Of a stretch of DNA of 40,735 nucleotides, positions 4,787 through 34,317 are shown in pieces. Every line of letters begins with the position of its first letter. Within the stretch, counting starts at the first letter, position 1. The translations under genes were made by a program, and so were the position numbers. The DNA comes from Alphaproteobacteria bacterium (GTDB lineage Bacteria; Pseudomonadota; Alphaproteobacteria; UBA9655): positions 1 to 40,735 of the forward strand of contig JAKFXB010000006.1 of NCBI GenBank assembly GCA_021731585.1, in the 5' to 3' direction. The notes under the pieces are model-generated. The model had not been told where the DNA came from. It made no database searches and worked only from the letters and a program-made list of their open reading frames with translations.

Positions 4787-5818
4787 CTAAGCAGCGTCTA
4801 CAGTGGGGACAGGAACACCGCTAGTTGTCGAATACTCAAAATGATAAACTTCCCCCGGATGAATAAAGGCTCTAATGGCATGAGCAGCTTGAGCAGCTTC
4901 TGCAAAACCCGTCAGGATTAACTTTAGTTTATGAGAGTAATGCGCAATGTCCCCAATGGCAAAAATCCCCGAAATATTTGTTGAACAGTCCTGAGGATCA
5001 ACTTGAATATGAGTTGTATTAAGCTGGAGCCCCCAATGGGCAATCGGCCCCAAATTCATCGCCAAGCCATAAAAGGGAAGAAGGTAATCTGCTTGAAGTT
5101 CTCTCCTCTCTCCGTCTAAAGATTTTACAATAACGCGCTCAAGCTTCCCAGCACTTCCAGAGAGCCCTTCGAGTTGAAAAGGGATCACAAGATCAATGAT
5201 TCCCTTTTGAGCTAATGTATGAAGCTGAGATTCACTTTCAGGAGCAGCACGAAATTTGGGACGACGATGCACGACTGAAACCCTCTTGGCAATCTCTGCA
5301 AGGGAAAGAGCCCAATCCACTGCCGAGTCCCCTCCTCCCGCAATGACAAGGTTCTTTCCTCTAAAATCCTCACGATTTTTCACATAATAAAAAATGCTTT
5401 TGTCTTCAAATTCTTCTAGATTTTCAAGGGGAGGACGATTGGGACCAAAGGCTCCTACGCCAGCAGCAATAAGAACCGTCTTTGCCTCTAATTTCTCTCC
5501 CAAAGAAGTTTCCACTTGCCACAGATTCGTCTCTTCGTTCTTTTTCATTTTCAAAACTTGTTGCCCTAAGTAGTAAGAAGGGGCAAACGGCTCTGCCTGC
5601 TTTTTTAAATTTTCAATAAGCTCTCCCGCCAAGATTTTGGGGTAGGCTGGAATATCATAAATAGGTTTCTCAGGATAAAGGGCGGTACATTGCCCCCCAA
5701 CGGCATCCAAAGCATCCACAACGTGGCATTTAAGACCCATCATGCCGCACTCAAAAATCGCAAAAAGGCCCACGGGACCTGCACCAATAATAATTACATC
5801 TCTGGATTGATGTGACAT
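4787..5818 (-). CDS. Ferredoxin/flavodoxin-NADP+ reductase (thioredoxin reductase-like, YumC type)
   Basis: A 343-residue FAD/NAD(P)-binding oxidoreductase. An N-terminal FAD Rossmann motif IGAGPVG lies near residues 11-17, a VGGQCTALYPEKPIYDIP segment follows, and a second dinucleotide-binding motif IAGGGDSAVDWA lies mid-protein. FAIGDIAHY binds FAD near the C-terminus. The thioredoxin reductase CxxC redox pair is absent, which points to the type 2 ferredoxin-NADP reductase family that recycles NADPH and reduced ferredoxin. An in-frame extension runs to 5896 but crosses the CarD terminator; the ATG at 5818 begins the conserved domain and is the better start. Cytosolic. Confidence 0.85.
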   Translation of the reverse strand: MSHQSRDVIIIGAGPVGLFAIFECGMMGLKCHVVDALDAVGGQCTALYPEKPIYDIPAYPKILAGELIENLKKQAEPFAPSYYLGQQVLKMKKNEETNLWQVETSLGEKLEAKTVLIAAGVGAFGPNRPPLENLEEFEDKSIFYYVKNREDFRGKNLVIAGGGDSAVDWALSLAEIAKRVSVVHRRPKFRAAPESESQLHTLAQKGIIDLVIPFQLEGLSGSAGKLERVIVKSLDGERRELQADYLLPFYGLAMNLGPIAHWGLQLNTTHIQVDPQDCSTNISGIFAIGDIAHYSHKLKLILTGFAEAAQAAHAIRAFIHPGEVYHFEYSTTSGVPVPTVDAA

Positions 5819-5852
5819 TTTCTTTTTTCTCTCAAAAATACTAAAAAAGAAA

Positions 5853-5893
5853 ATCCCTGACTTTCTCGAAAAAATCAAGAAAAAATCAGGGAT
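5853..5893 (-). terminator. Intrinsic terminator after carD
   Basis: ATCCCTGA (5853-5860) and TCAGGGAT (5886-5893) form a perfect 8-bp stem extended by imperfect A/T pairs. On the minus strand a TTTCTTTTTT run follows. It starts 10 bases past the carD stop and ends transcription before the oxidoreductase gene. Confidence 0.75.
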
Positions 5894-5902
5894 CAAGAAA
5901 AA

Positions 5903-6400
5903 TTAAGCTGCTGCTAAAATATTTTCAACTTTTTGAATAGCCAGGTCTTGATCAATACTTTCAACCGCTGCAATTTCACCCGCTAGACGGGTAAGGGCAT
6001 TTTGATATACTTGGCGCTCACTATAAGACTGCTCTGGTTGGTTAGCTGTTCGGTAAAGTTCACGAACAACTTCTGCTAAAAAGATAGGATCGCCAGAATT
6101 TATTTTTGTTTCATATTCCTGAGCACGGCGGCTCCACATTGTGCGGCGGACTCTTGAGCGCGCTTTAAGAGCATTAATAGCTTCACCTAATTCTTTTGTC
6201 GTTGAAACAGGGCGCAAACCAGATGTTTTAGCCTTAGCAACAGGAAGACGCAAAGTCATGCGATCTTTCTCAAAAGAGATAACGAACATTTCAAGTGCAT
6301 GTCCTGCAACTTCATGCGTCTCAATTGATTGAATTTTACCAACGCCGTGTGCTGGATAAACAACATGATTTCCACATGTAAAAGAAGTTATTTTAGCCAT
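5903..6400 (-). CDS. carD: CarD/CdnL family transcriptional regulator
   Basis: A 165-residue protein with the CarD_CdnL_TRCF domain: FTCGNHVVYPAHGVGKIQSIE at the N-terminus binds the RNA polymerase beta subunit (Tudor-like fold). A helical C-terminal part includes the MWSRRAQEYETKINSGD stretch, where a conserved Trp props open the promoter DNA. In alphaproteobacteria CdnL stabilises open complexes at rRNA and growth genes. A strong GGAGGG ribosome binding site sits 6 bases before the ATG. The gene is monocistronic, followed by its own terminator. Length is normal for the family. Confidence 0.93.
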   Translation of the reverse strand: MAKITSFTCGNHVVYPAHGVGKIQSIETHEVAGHALEMFVISFEKDRMTLRLPVAKAKTSGLRPVSTTKELGEAINALKARSRVRRTMWSRRAQEYETKINSGDPIFLAEVVRELYRTANQPEQSYSERQVYQNALTRLAGEIAAVESIDQDLAIQKVENILAAA

Positions 6401-30811: not shown

Positions 30812-31288
30812 CTAAAAACTCTTCCAGGAAGAGTTGCTCCCTAACAGCCATTTTCGTATAAAAAAGTCACAAGATATGCTCCCGGGCCCATAACAAATAA
30901 TTAACCCTAAAAGCATCCCCCAATAGATATGTTCATTCACGCATAAATACGTACATTGAATCACTAGAGTCATAATCAACATAGGAATGGCTGCAAGGCG
31001 GGAAGCAAAGCCAATAACAATCAGAACAGGGCAGGTAAGCTCAATAAGAGTCGCAAAGTAAGCAGCAAGCGTTGGAGGGAGAGCCGGCACCTTATATTCA
31101 TTTTTGAAAAGCATCAGCGTGGTGGGCCAACTTTGGATTTTGCAAAGACCGGAATCCCAAAAAATGCGGGCAATCCATAAACGAACAGATAGAAAAAAAA
31201 GAGGACCTATAAACTTTTCTAAAAAGAAAAGAAGATTTAAATATCCCTTAATCCAGCGAGAGCGAAGAAGTGTTTTGGAAAGCGCCAT
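30812..31288 (-). CDS. DoxX family membrane protein
   Basis: 158 residues with about four membrane helices. Family features: LFFLSVRLWIARIFWDSGLCKI after the first helix, the FFATLIELTCPVLIVIGF-like second helix and the LAAIPMLIMTLVIQ third helix. DoxX proteins are small integral membrane proteins of uncertain role; some operons pair them with DUF692 and DUF2063 genes, as here, in the bufferin (copper-binding RiPP) clusters. It starts 16 bases after the DUF2063 stop and ends 7 bases before rsmD. Confidence 0.8.
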   Translation of the reverse strand: MALSKTLLRSRWIKGYLNLLFFLEKFIGPLFFLSVRLWIARIFWDSGLCKIQSWPTTLMLFKNEYKVPALPPTLAAYFATLIELTCPVLIVIGFASRLAAIPMLIMTLVIQCTYLCVNEHIYWGMLLGLIICYGPGSISCDFFIRKWLLGSNSSWKSF

Positions 31289-31304: not shown

Positions 31305-32069
31305 TTATTCTGCTAAGAACATATAATCTGAAAATACTCCATTTTTAAGAGAAAAGGAAAGGATTTCCTGAAAGTCAAACTTTCTCTCCCCTATTTTTTC
31401 CAAAACTTCCCCCAAAGGAATCCCCTTTGAAACAAAGGAAAAAAAAGTGAATTCAGCTTCAGACAGCCAATAAGTATTTACCTGCCCTTCTTGCCTGATG
31501 ATTAAGGCATAAGAGCCCCTATGCTCAAGAACCACCGATGGCACTTTTTCCTCAACAACTTCTAAGACCTGATCTAAGGGATAGGGTGAGCTGAAAAGAA
31601 AAAGTGACGGATGAGCGATAAAAACAAGCCTTTCATAGAGATGAGGAGGTATGTTTTTTAAATCTTCCGCTATCAAAGGAGTTTTCTCTTCAGCGTACAA
31701 GGACTCCCCAGTGATATATTCTAGTTTTGCAAAATGCGAGAGATAAGAGAGAGTCTTTGTCGCTTCAAAAGCTTCCAAAAATTCGGGAAAGTCTCTTCCC
31801 CAATTTAAAAGTGTTCCCTCTTGCGGATAAGACTTTTGAGCACGAATAAAAGCATAGGCCGCGCTATCAGCACAGTTTTGACCGATCAACTTCCAGGTAA
31901 AAGGATACGTCCCCTCAAGGGCTTTCCGAAATGCGCCCTCCACATTTCCCTTATAAACTGAAAAGCGGTTCTCAGGAGAAACAGCATTTATTTTAACAAA
32001 GTCTTTAAATGACCTTGTTCCTTCATAGGTTTCTAAAAAAGCCTTTTGGAGAGAATAGAGCTTTAGCAC
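31305..32069 (-). CDS. DUF2063-domain protein (BufC/MbnC-like)
   Basis: About 254 residues from a GTG at 32069. The N-terminal DUF2063 domain reads YSLQKAFLETYEG, then FSVYKGNVEGAFRKALEG and a conserved YPFTWKLIGQNCADSA region, then LNWGRDFPEFLEAF. In related systems this partner works with the DUF692 enzyme to bind peptide substrate. The frame stays open to an ATG at 32150, but that stretch lies inside the antitoxin gene and resembles no DUF2063 N-terminus. The GTG, 7 bases after the antitoxin stop, gives the normal family start. It is separated from its usual DUF692 partner by the toxin-antitoxin pair. Confidence 0.8.
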   Translation of the reverse strand: MLKLYSLQKAFLETYEGTRSFKDFVKINAVSPENRFSVYKGNVEGAFRKALEGTYPFTWKLIGQNCADSAAYAFIRAQKSYPQEGTLLNWGRDFPEFLEAFEATKTLSYLSHFAKLEYITGESLYAEEKTPLIAEDLKNIPPHLYERLVFIAHPSLFLFSSPYPLDQVLEVVEEKVPSVVLEHRGSYALIIRQEGQVNTYWLSEAEFTFFSFVSKGIPLGEVLEKIGERKFDFQEILSFSLKNGVFSDYMFLAE

Positions 32070-32076
32070 AAGCAAA

Positions 32077-32364
32077 TCATAAATTAAGGTGTCCAGCTGA
32101 ATATTTGTGTAATATGCTGGCAATAAGGGTCTGATAGGGTAGTCCTTCATAAGCCGCCATCTGCTTTAGTCTCTCTAGATCACTGGATGAAATGCGAACG
32201 TTAATTCTTGCATTTTTACGAAAGTATTGAGAAGCGGCTTGGCGCGTTTTTTGTATTTCTTCTTCCAAATTTTCTATACTTTCCCATTCACCTCGATCAA
32301 AGGAATCGGATAATTCCTTTTCAACGTCATCTAGATGAAAAATATCTTTCTTTCTCTTTGTCAT
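32077..32364 (-). CDS. CopG/BrnA-like antitoxin
   Basis: 95 residues from the ATG at 32364 (a GTG at 32370 is also in frame). GAGG overlaps the toxin stop and lies about 9 bases before the ATG. The acidic first half (DSFDRGEWESI, typical of this antitoxin group) likely neutralises the toxin. The C-terminal half (INVRISSSDLERLKQMAAYE and LPYQTLIASILHKY) is a ribbon-helix-helix DNA-binding domain that would repress the pair's own promoter. It lies 11 bases after the toxin gene, the order toxin then antitoxin being usual for BrnTA-type pairs. Confidence 0.82.
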   Translation of the reverse strand: MTKRKKDIFHLDDVEKELSDSFDRGEWESIENLEEEIQKTRQAASQYFRKNARINVRISSSDLERLKQMAAYEGLPYQTLIASILHKYSAGHLNL

Positions 32365-32375
32365 AATCACTTACC

Positions 32376-32657
32376 TCACTTATGCAGATATTTTTTTGTT
32401 GCTTTTTGATGGGGAAAAGCTGTTTTCAAAAATATTGTGTTTTCCTTTTCTACAAAGGGTACCAAATAAACATAATCATTAACATCAATCACATACATCT
32501 TTTGATGGGAATACTTTGTGGTATTATAATGTTTAATAATGTCGAGAGGACCTTTGCTTTCTAAAATGGCAATGATCTCCTCAAAACTAATCCCTCGAAG
32601 TTCTATAAGTTTTTTATTCTTTTGAGGATCAAAGTTATAAGTGTACTCCATTGTCAT
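32376..32657 (-). CDS. BrnT-like toxin of a type II toxin-antitoxin pair
   Basis: 93 residues. The NFDPQKNKKLIELRGISFEE stretch matches the start of the BrnT fold (DPxKN...RGISFEE). The middle strand pair (KMYVIDVNDYVYLVPFVE) and the final FLKTAFPHQKATKKYL, in place of the usual ISAR...Y ending, fit the variant of this fold that pairs with CopG antitoxins. BrnT is an RNase-like growth inhibitor; activity here is inferred. AAGG lies 7 bases before the ATG. It begins 25 bases after the DUF692 stop. Confidence 0.78.
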   Translation of the reverse strand: MTMEYTYNFDPQKNKKLIELRGISFEEIIAILESKGPLDIIKHYNTTKYSHQKMYVIDVNDYVYLVPFVEKENTIFLKTAFPHQKATKKYLHK

Positions 32658-32682: not shown

Positions 32683-33510
32683 TCAACATTTTTGCATCTC
32701 GATTTCAGCAAGCCGAGCCTCTCCCATCAATACCTCAAAGTCTGGAATATCCGCATCCCATTCAATAAGCGTTGGCGCCCCCATCCCCAATTGAAGAGCT
32801 TCAGCATAAAGGGCCCATACCTTTTCACACACGTGGGAAGAATGGGTGTCGATTAAAAGGGAAGAGCCATCTTCAAAAGTTTTTTGGCTATGACCCGCCA
32901 GGTGAATTTCACCAACAAGGGAAGGTGAAATGTTTTTGAGATAAAAGGAGGGATCCCATCCATGGTTTACGGAAGAGACATAGATATTATTAATATCCAA
33001 CAAAAGCTTGGCGCCTGTTTTTTGACAAAGAGCATTTAAAAACTCAGGCTCTGTCATAGTTGACACGATGTATTCAAGATAGGAGGAAGGATTTTCAATC
33101 AAAATCTCTCGCCCTAAAAAGCTTTGGGCTTCATCAATATGATTTGAAAAAATTTCCAAAGCTTCATCCGTATAGGGAACTGGCAAAAGATCAGGTAAAT
33201 ATTGTCCTTTAATCCGGGACCAGGAGAGATGCTCGGAAACTAAAAAAGGAGAAAACCGCTCTATCAGAGTTTTGAATTGTTTTAAATGATCCCGATCAAT
33301 TCTCTCCGCCGATCCTAAGGAAAGACCAACCCCGTGAAGACTTAAAGGATACTTTTCACAGATTCGCTCTAATCGTTGAAGGGCAGGATCTCCCTTCATA
33401 AAGAAATTTTCAGGGTGAACTTCAAACCAACCTATAGAAGGGGCGTTGTCTAAAACATATTGATAGTGGGGAAGGCGCAAGCCAATCCCCACACATTTAT
33501 TTATAGGCAC
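32683..33510 (-). CDS. DUF692 family multinuclear iron enzyme (BufB/MbnB-like)
   Basis: 275 residues, TIM-barrel. DUF692 enzymes are mixed-iron oxygenases that modify cysteines in ribosomal peptides (methanobactin, bufferins). Likely metal and catalytic residues: His59 in LHGVGLSLG, Glu93/His94 in SEHLSW, Glu139 in IENPSSYL, Asp172 in LLLDINN, His203/His207 in EIHLAGH, Asp221/His223 in DTHSSH, and Glu250 in IEWD. GTG start at 33510 with AAAGG upstream. No canonical BufA precursor (DUF2282) lies upstream. It heads a run that continues into the toxin, antitoxin, DUF2063 and DoxX genes. Confidence 0.88.
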   Translation of the reverse strand: MPINKCVGIGLRLPHYQYVLDNAPSIGWFEVHPENFFMKGDPALQRLERICEKYPLSLHGVGLSLGSAERIDRDHLKQFKTLIERFSPFLVSEHLSWSRIKGQYLPDLLPVPYTDEALEIFSNHIDEAQSFLGREILIENPSSYLEYIVSTMTEPEFLNALCQKTGAKLLLDINNIYVSSVNHGWDPSFYLKNISPSLVGEIHLAGHSQKTFEDGSSLLIDTHSSHVCEKVWALYAEALQLGMGAPTLIEWDADIPDFEVLMGEARLAEIEMQKC

Positions 33511-33530
33511 CCTAAAGCCTTTGTTTTCAT
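33501..33530 (-). CDS. Nine-codon ORF overlapping the DUF692 start
   Basis: ATG to TAA encoding MKTKALGCL. It overlaps the GTG start of the DUF692 gene and could be a leader peptide, the remnant of a precursor gene's signal peptide after deletion, or chance. Confidence 0.2.
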   Translation of the reverse strand: MKTKALGCL

Positions 33531-33595
33531 AGTTAATTCCCCAGTAGATTGATTAAAATCTTATCCTATACCTAAAAAACTTCAAGAGGCCTTAC

Positions 33596-33622
33596 AAAAA
33601 ACCCCGTGGAGGGGCCACGGGG
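33596..33622 (-). terminator. Strong intrinsic terminator upstream of the DUF692 gene
   Basis: CCCCGTGG (33602-33609) and CCACGGGG (33615-33622) form a perfect 8-bp GC-rich stem with a 5-base loop. On the minus strand it is followed by six T. It ends a minus-strand unit lying upstream, best explained by the small peptide gene at 33731-33892. Confidence 0.85.
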
Positions 33623-33645
33623 CGTCATCAAAAGAGAGGGTGACG

Positions 33646-33666
33646 TTCCGCGGTTAAACCGCGGAA
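33646..33666. repeat. Perfect palindrome TTCCGCGGTT-A-AACCGCGGAA
   Basis: Two perfect 10-base arms around one base, 24 bases upstream of the terminator hairpin on the minus strand. It has no T-run. It may be an extragenic palindrome or an RNA-stabilising hairpin. Confidence 0.6.
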
Positions 33667-33730
33667 TCCATCTATATTTAACGGCCTTTACGACGGGAAA
33701 ACGCTGGCCTTTTTGCCGCAGTCCTACCTC

Positions 33731-33892
33731 TCACACTTGATGCTGACCTTGCATCACATCCCTATAAAATCTTGCTTTAGGCTGTTCCTCAACATCAAAA
33801 TAAATAGCGAGATCTTTTGCTTGTGAATTTGCACCACAAAGATTCAAAGCACCACTTACAAATAAAATAAAATAACCAACAATTTTCCGCAT
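33731..33892 (-). CDS. Small exported peptide, possibly frameshifted
   Basis: 53 codons. AGGA lies about 9 bases before the ATG. Signal peptide RKIVGYFILFVSGALNLCG with likely cleavage after NSQA, followed by a mature part of about 29 residues (KDLAIYFDVEEQPKARFYRD...). The frame stops at 33731, but the next frame continues from about GCDA through a basic, Ser- and Arg-rich stretch and ends RRKGR at 33678, just before the hairpins. A single-base shift near RFYRD would therefore give a peptide of about 71 residues with a strongly basic tail. Its own terminator follows. I recognise no family. It sits upstream of the DUF692 gene but is not a known bufferin. Confidence 0.5.
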   Translation of the reverse strand: MRKIVGYFILFVSGALNLCGANSQAKDLAIYFDVEEQPKARFYRDVMQGQHQV

Positions 33893-33979
33893 AATAAATA
33901 ATCCTAAAAAAATATTAACAACTAGCTATACATATAATAACTTTTCACTCACTTTCAAGAGCGAATTCACATTTTGCGT

Positions 33980-34084
33980 TAGGACGTGTCGACATTTATC
34001 TCTCCGTTATTAAAAAAATGTGTAAGAGAATCAAACACTTTCACCTCTCCACACAAGGGGAGAGGTAAATGTCGACATATCCTA
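33980..34084. repeat. MITE-like element with 26-bp terminal inverted repeats
   Basis: Arms at 33980-34005 and 34059-34084 match at 23 of 26 positions when inverted and centre on TGTCGACATTTA. An inner hairpin ACCTCTCC/GGAGAGGT (34043-34066) sits in the right half. No coding potential. It occupies part of the 425-base gap between the small peptide gene and ppx. Confidence 0.65.
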
Positions 34085-34109
34085 GACCAGCTATGTTATT
34101 GAAGAGATT

Positions 34110-34137
34110 CTGAGCTCGCCACGTTGTGGCTTCTCAG
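34110..34137. repeat. Short extragenic palindrome
   Basis: CTGAG (34110-34114) and CTCAG (34133-34137) flank an inner GCCAC/GTGGC stem. It lies between the MITE-like element and the next palindrome. Confidence 0.4.
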
Positions 34138-34171
34138 TATGATATTTTTCCAATAAATACAAATAGTTGTC

Positions 34172-34209
34172 ATCCTGAGACCCCGAGTCAAACGAGTGGG
34201 GCTCAGGAT
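34172..34209. repeat. Extragenic palindrome ATCCTGAG...CTCAGGAT
   Basis: Perfect 8-base arms (34172-34179, 34202-34209) plus an inner CCCC/GGGG pair. This GTCATCCTGAG-type sequence is a common form of dispersed extragenic repeat. Confidence 0.5.
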
Positions 34210-34317
34210 CTCATGGATAATTATTAAGATCGAATCCCACTTTAAATCTGCGGGGTATCACCCTCTCTCCACAATATAAAAGTTGCCCCTAAGAAGAACT
34301 CGCTTTAGTGTAGAGCT

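Follow-up and report, generated by a model that had tools for sequence, protein, structure and literature searches.

Which peptide does the DUF692 enzyme encoded in this stretch of DNA modify? The window, i.e. the whole stretch that was analyzed (40,735 nt, contig C6 of an alphaproteobacterial draft genome, here G000), carries a DUF692 gene, bufB. As the preliminary description had stated, no DUF2282-type precursor is visible near it: there is no DUF2282-like open reading frame (ORF) between ppx and bufB. That description left three possibilities, namely a non-canonical substrate, a substrate encoded elsewhere, or deletion of the precursor and a new role for the enzyme. With a probability of roughly 85%, we regard the locus as one part of a split bufferin system, in which bufB, bufC, and doxX lie in the window, the precursor gene bufA lies unlinked on contig C2 of the same genome, and the small ORF upstream of bufB is an unrelated relic.

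The DUF692 gene and its partner genes

The DUF692 gene (32683..33510, minus strand, GTG start at 33510) encodes a protein of 275 amino acids. This protein matched the NCBIfam equivalog model MNIO_BufB (NF050167) with 369.6 bits (cut-off 310) and PF05114 with 337.7 bits, whereas its score against the HvfB model (229 bits) was under the cut-off of 360. Comparison with PDB entry 3bww gave an E-value of 1.5e-46. All 20 polar residues invariant across 17 other MNIO proteins, taken from the genus and from outgroups, were retained, and dN/dS was 0.08-0.17 among G000 and the sister species G005, G009, and G010. The gene is bufB, encoding a bufferin maturase; NF050167, PF05114, and the invariant residues identify its product as the bufferin-type MNIO enzyme of a Buf1 system.

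On the same strand, bufB is followed by a BrnT/BrnA-like gene pair, bufC, and doxX, in this order. The gene bufC (31305..32150, minus strand) encodes the DUF2063 partner of Buf1 systems (PF09836, 47.2 bits; cut-off 27.2), and doxX (30812..31288, minus strand) encodes a DoxX-family membrane protein of bufferin clusters (PF07681, 57.3 bits; cut-off 23.6), which scored below the cut-off of the HvfX family model (49.3 versus 80 bits). In the genome as a whole, one DUF692, one DUF2282, and one DUF2063 gene were found; as the assembly is a 93%-complete draft of 158 contigs, it may lack a further precursor or MNIO gene.

The BrnT/BrnA-like pair (32077-32657) sits exactly between bufB and bufC. It consists of a BrnT-like toxin gene (32376..32657, minus strand; PF04365, E = 2e-5) and a BrnA/CopG-like antitoxin gene (32077..32370, minus strand; PF12441, E = 7e-6, and PF14384, E = 1e-3), all three matches being below cut-off. 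Alignment of the junction showed that the insertion is confined to G000, with none in G005, G009, or G010, and that it replaces about 44 bp, comprising the final ~11 codons of bufB and the start of bufC. Owing to the insertion, BufB ends in IEMQKC instead of the last ~11 residues of its relatives. The original start of bufC was likely lost as well, with translation restarting at a TTG or GTG near the antitoxin stop. The insertion carries a near-consensus promoter (TTGACA-17-TAACAT), which shares part of its -35 box with the bufB stop. The toxin has homologues at other sites in G004 and G001.

A DUF2282 precursor gene on another contig

A PF10048 search detected a single DUF2282 gene in the genome, the Buf1 precursor gene bufA on contig C2 (G000:C2:49034-49300, i.e. 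L053:6035-6301). The gene is intact and encodes 88 amino acids (40.7 bits; cut-off 22.4). Its product, MNKRSLTTSILAVAFAAVLAEDACADDSKGEKCRINDPSGKSLIKAHMADCASDHSSCAGANSEGDPHAYLYLPEGVCGKIKGGEVVN, has a signal-peptide-like start, judged by eye, followed by the four Cys of Buf1 bufferins. This four-Cys pattern was invariant in ten species of the genus, and bufA dN/dS was 0.13-0.22 among G000 and the three sister species. The suggestion that the substrate is encoded elsewhere was thus borne out by a canonical precursor. The preliminary description had named a DUF2282 gene beside a second DUF692 copy elsewhere as a finding that would refute its view; the DUF2282 gene exists, but no second DUF692 gene was found. 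A search of the genome for a Buf2 precursor found none.

The start of bufA is 2 bases past the stop of a YkuD L,D-transpeptidase gene, and the contig terminates 129 bp beyond bufA. The YkuD-bufA pair and its neighborhood are also present in G005, G009, and G010, so contig C2 did not end up in this genome through a binning error. The contiguous bufABC order of Buf1 systems is broken up in G000, with bufA on C2 and bufBC on C6. The BufA scores, at 40-50 bits, fall short of those of linked DUF2282 genes from outside the genus, which mostly reach 65-95 bits. G009 additionally encodes a divergent DUF2282 protein (L054:6181-6435; 59 bits, cut-off 22.4), its second, which stands alone with no MNIO gene nearby.

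Co-occurrence of enzyme and precursor genes

Among 59 related genomes from the genus, the family, and the class, 28 contained both DUF692 and DUF2282, 28 contained neither, three contained DUF692 alone, and none contained DUF2282 alone. All 28 DUF2282 carriers therefore possess DUF692, and no DUF692-free genome has DUF2282. Two of the three genomes with DUF692 only are 63% and 77% complete. Fisher p-values for this co-occurrence (1e-13 overall, 0.004 in the genus), uncorrected for phylogeny, should be taken as indicative because related genomes are not independent. Within the genus, bufC (DUF2063) was present in 11/11 genomes with bufB and in 0/4 without it; bufA, bufB, and bufC are jointly retained or jointly absent. 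Linkage differed strongly: the DUF692 and DUF2282 genes are no more than 1 kb apart in 18/18 genomes outside the genus versus 2/10 inside, from which we infer that bufA became unlinked in the genus.

According to the 2025 survey, a sizeable share of bufferin precursors is encoded at a distance from MNIO genes; the survey leaves open whether such unlinked precursors get modified and so allows that they stay unmodified (PMC12452194). The precursor might then be truly lost in a functional sense, with an unmodified DUF2282 protein on C2 and a BufB that acts on another substrate or is decaying, and the ~11 residues missing from the BufB C-terminus would fit such decay. We consider this improbable, since the three genes are kept or absent jointly, BufB combines low dN/dS with a full set of invariant polar residues, and the central Cys pattern of BufA does not vary. 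The retained polar residues and the shared fate of the three genes likewise speak against the earlier proposal of a deleted precursor and a new role for the enzyme.

As one MNIO and one precursor, unlinked in the genus, co-occur, BufB most likely acts in trans on the unlinked BufA. By analogy with known bufferins, BufA would be made from its own locus with a signal peptide, and BufB, aided by BufC, would oxidize the two central Cys of BufA in the cytoplasm, either ahead of Sec export or in the course of it. The exported product would bind excess copper in the periplasm. In G001, a gene about 3 kb downstream of bufBCD (L037:12074-14185) has an HMA-like metal-binding motif (GMHCVAC) at its start and probably encodes a copper P-type ATPase, which is in line with a copper role.

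Relation to known MNIO systems

In bufferins, the modification falls on the two central Cys, and a disulphide joins the outer two (PMC12452194). With its BufB equivalog, DUF2063 protein, DoxX protein, and four-Cys signal-peptide DUF2282 precursor, the system described here resembles the Buf1 bufABC and doxX clusters (Antoine et al. 2025, PMC12452194), but its precursor is unlinked and a toxin-antitoxin pair lies between bufB and bufC. Stand-alone precursors of Legionella pneumophila subsp. fraseri are likewise encoded apart from any MNIO gene; that organism has several MNIOs and precursors, so that their pairing is ambiguous, whereas here one of each was found and the split is genus-wide (PMC12452194). 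The captophorins fontiphorin, oxazolin/HvfA, and gonophorin share the action of an MNIO and a DUF2063 partner on precursor Cys and the link to copper (PMC13097082). Their precursors are linked EGKCG-repeat peptides (PMC13097082), and the HvfB model was matched here only below its cut-off, as given above.

Stand-alone precursors are thus already known; what is new is that the split, between one enzyme and one precursor, extends through a genus. With one MNIO and one precursor at separate loci, and both genes kept or lost together in the genus, this genome offers an unambiguous pairing for testing modification in trans. More generally, the lack of a neighboring precursor does not equal a new substrate, and a small ORF upstream of an MNIO gene need not be its precursor.

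Small open reading frames upstream of bufB

The preliminary description listed an exported 53-residue ORF, a basic Ser/Arg tail in a second frame, a strong terminator, and a nine-codon ORF, MKTKALGCL, over the DUF692 start. All of these are present in the sequence. The 53-aa ORF lies at 33731..33892 (minus strand), and the out-of-frame tail, ending VRGRTAAKRPAFSRRKGR, at 33678..33748 (minus strand, TAA at 33678). Residues 1-49 of the ORF are 57% identical to the start of a secreted protein encoded at the end of G009:C36, the DNA being 69% identical over 213 bp. Further on, this protein has a LigT-like region (E about 1e-4 against PF02834/PF13563, just under cut-off) and PLPAPKPA repeats; its reading frame is cut off by the contig end. 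The tail, in turn, matches the end of a repeat gene of G009 (L034; 74% DNA identity over 73 bp), the product of which ends RVAPKRPAPLRRKGR. The first bases of contig C83 already lie in the PLPAPKPA repeats of that gene, which ends right before bufB.

The simplest reading of these alignments is that C36 and C83 would carry a single gene, joined here by inference, that was split by the assembler in its repeats, and that the window copy of this KP-repeat gene would have lost its whole middle, with loss of the frame near 33748. The 53-aa ORF and the tail share the N- and C-terminus, respectively, of the secreted LigT-like KP-repeat protein and would represent the two relic ends of a secreted LigT/2H-phosphoesterase-like gene; the phosphoesterase domain and the repeats are absent from the window. 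As a remnant left by the internal deletion, the ORF between ppx and bufB would have no role in the split bufferin system. Several genes for secreted Nudix or LigT-like domains with long basic KP-rich repeat tails occur in the genus (L035:4620-5462; L106:4448-5365 and 5408-6304; L107:4604-5527; L105:2585-3409).

The ORF could, however, encode a genuine small exported protein that has a function of its own and no connection with bufferins. Its start is intact, it has a signal peptide and a terminator, and its N-terminal part showed a dN/dS of 0.15 relative to the G009 homologue (at a dS of 1.8, near saturation), so that recent translation is still possible. We regard this as unlikely, given that the ORF ends by frame loss at the very place from which the longer gene's C-terminal codons run on in another frame, that it is without the whole LigT-like domain and the repeats, and that its short form was absent from 14 congeners, among which it was met only in G009, as the opening part of a 285-codon open frame. 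The preliminary description had named a lack of conservation in relatives as a finding that would refute its view, and the small ORF was indeed not conserved.

Less likely still is the idea that the 53-aa peptide, or a frameshifted version of 71-73 residues, serves as a non-canonical BufB substrate. The peptide does have a plausible signal peptide, and its ORF shares the strand of bufB and lies just ahead of it; in G002, G013, and G001, too, the ppx-bufB interval codes for exported peptides. Yet its predicted mature part, KDLAIYFDVEEQPKARFYRDVMQGQHQV, is free of Cys (the sole Cys, residue 19, falls in the predicted signal peptide), no Pfam or NCBIfam family matched the ORF, and BufA models scored it no better than shuffles. 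In addition, a terminator stands between the ORF and bufB, and homology accounts for both of its frames as a gene relic. With no mature Cys, no precursor-family homology, and no conservation beside bufB, the 53-aa ORF is not an MNIO precursor. Descent from a decayed bufA copy was also considered and rejected on account of the shuffle-level scores and the better source in G009:C36.

The nine-codon ORF MKTKALGCL (33501..33530, minus strand) overlaps the GTG start and ribosome-binding region of bufB. Its ATG is replaced by GTA in G010 (L013) and by ATA in G009 (L017); the rest of its DNA is conserved on account of the ribosome-binding region and bufB start that it contains. We therefore rejected it as a leader or precursor and consider it a chance frame.

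The intrinsic terminator behind the relic gene (33601..33623, minus strand) has a 9-bp stem and a T tail. Four terminator-like sites were found in the region versus 1.0 expected from shuffles, and hairpins near-identical to this one occur elsewhere in the genome. Between the terminator and bufB lies a conserved upstream region (33502..33589, minus strand), in which about 90 bp are shared with G010 at 94-95% identity. It contains a promoter-like site, TTGAAG-16-TAAGAT, which was called by eye and not returned by a consensus scan. As the terminator closes the relic gene, transcription of bufB probably starts at a promoter of its own and does not include bufA.

The ppx-bufB interval in other species

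The content of the ppx-bufB interval varies from species to species. It comprises (i) two exported peptides in G002, one of which is a canonical BufA; (ii) a two-Cys exported peptide in G013 and G001; (iii) a Cys-free one in G006 and G003; (iv) the KP-repeat gene in G009; (v) another secreted gene in G010; and (vi) a secreted Nudix gene with a KP-rich tail plus a second secreted gene in G005. A profile of the bufB-adjacent peptides of the congeners detected the unlinked bufA genes, and in G000 only bufA, noting that this profile includes the canonical BufA of G002 and that the likeness lies partly in the signal peptide. When mature parts alone were used, the two-Cys peptides of G002 and of G013 outscored each of 200 shuffled controls, while that of G001 did not clearly do so; hhalign of the mature parts gave a probability of 40% and an E-value of 3e-4. 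These comparisons are suggestive of a descent of bufB-adjacent peptides from bufA. For the Cys-free peptides of G006 and G003, such descent was not borne out: their resemblance does not extend beyond the signal peptide, and their mature parts scored no higher than shuffled ones.

In the BufB tree, the window sequence groups with G009, then G005, then G010, and these are the four species without a bufA-like peptide before bufB. Possibly, though we offer this history tentatively and with more doubt than confidence, the canonical bufA moved to an independent site in this genus, and the copy that stayed before bufB decayed stepwise via two-Cys (G002, G013, perhaps G001) and Cys-free forms (G006, G003) until it was lost (G000, G005, G009, G010), leaving BufB to act in trans on a single unlinked substrate.

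Repeats near the ppx-bufB interval

Two repeats were noted close to this interval. At 33979-34084 of the window lies an element of about 107 bp with inverted ends (TGTCGACATTTAyCTCTCC). At least five contigs of the same genome carry, within 270 bases of their start, copies of its 72-bp right part that are 97-100% identical. The element is a MITE-like insertion-sequence derivative that breaks the assembly. The second, at 34080-34238, is a dispersed palindromic repeat of ~150 bp (CCTGAG...CTCAGGATG), of which dozens of copies occur in G000, G005, G009, and G010.
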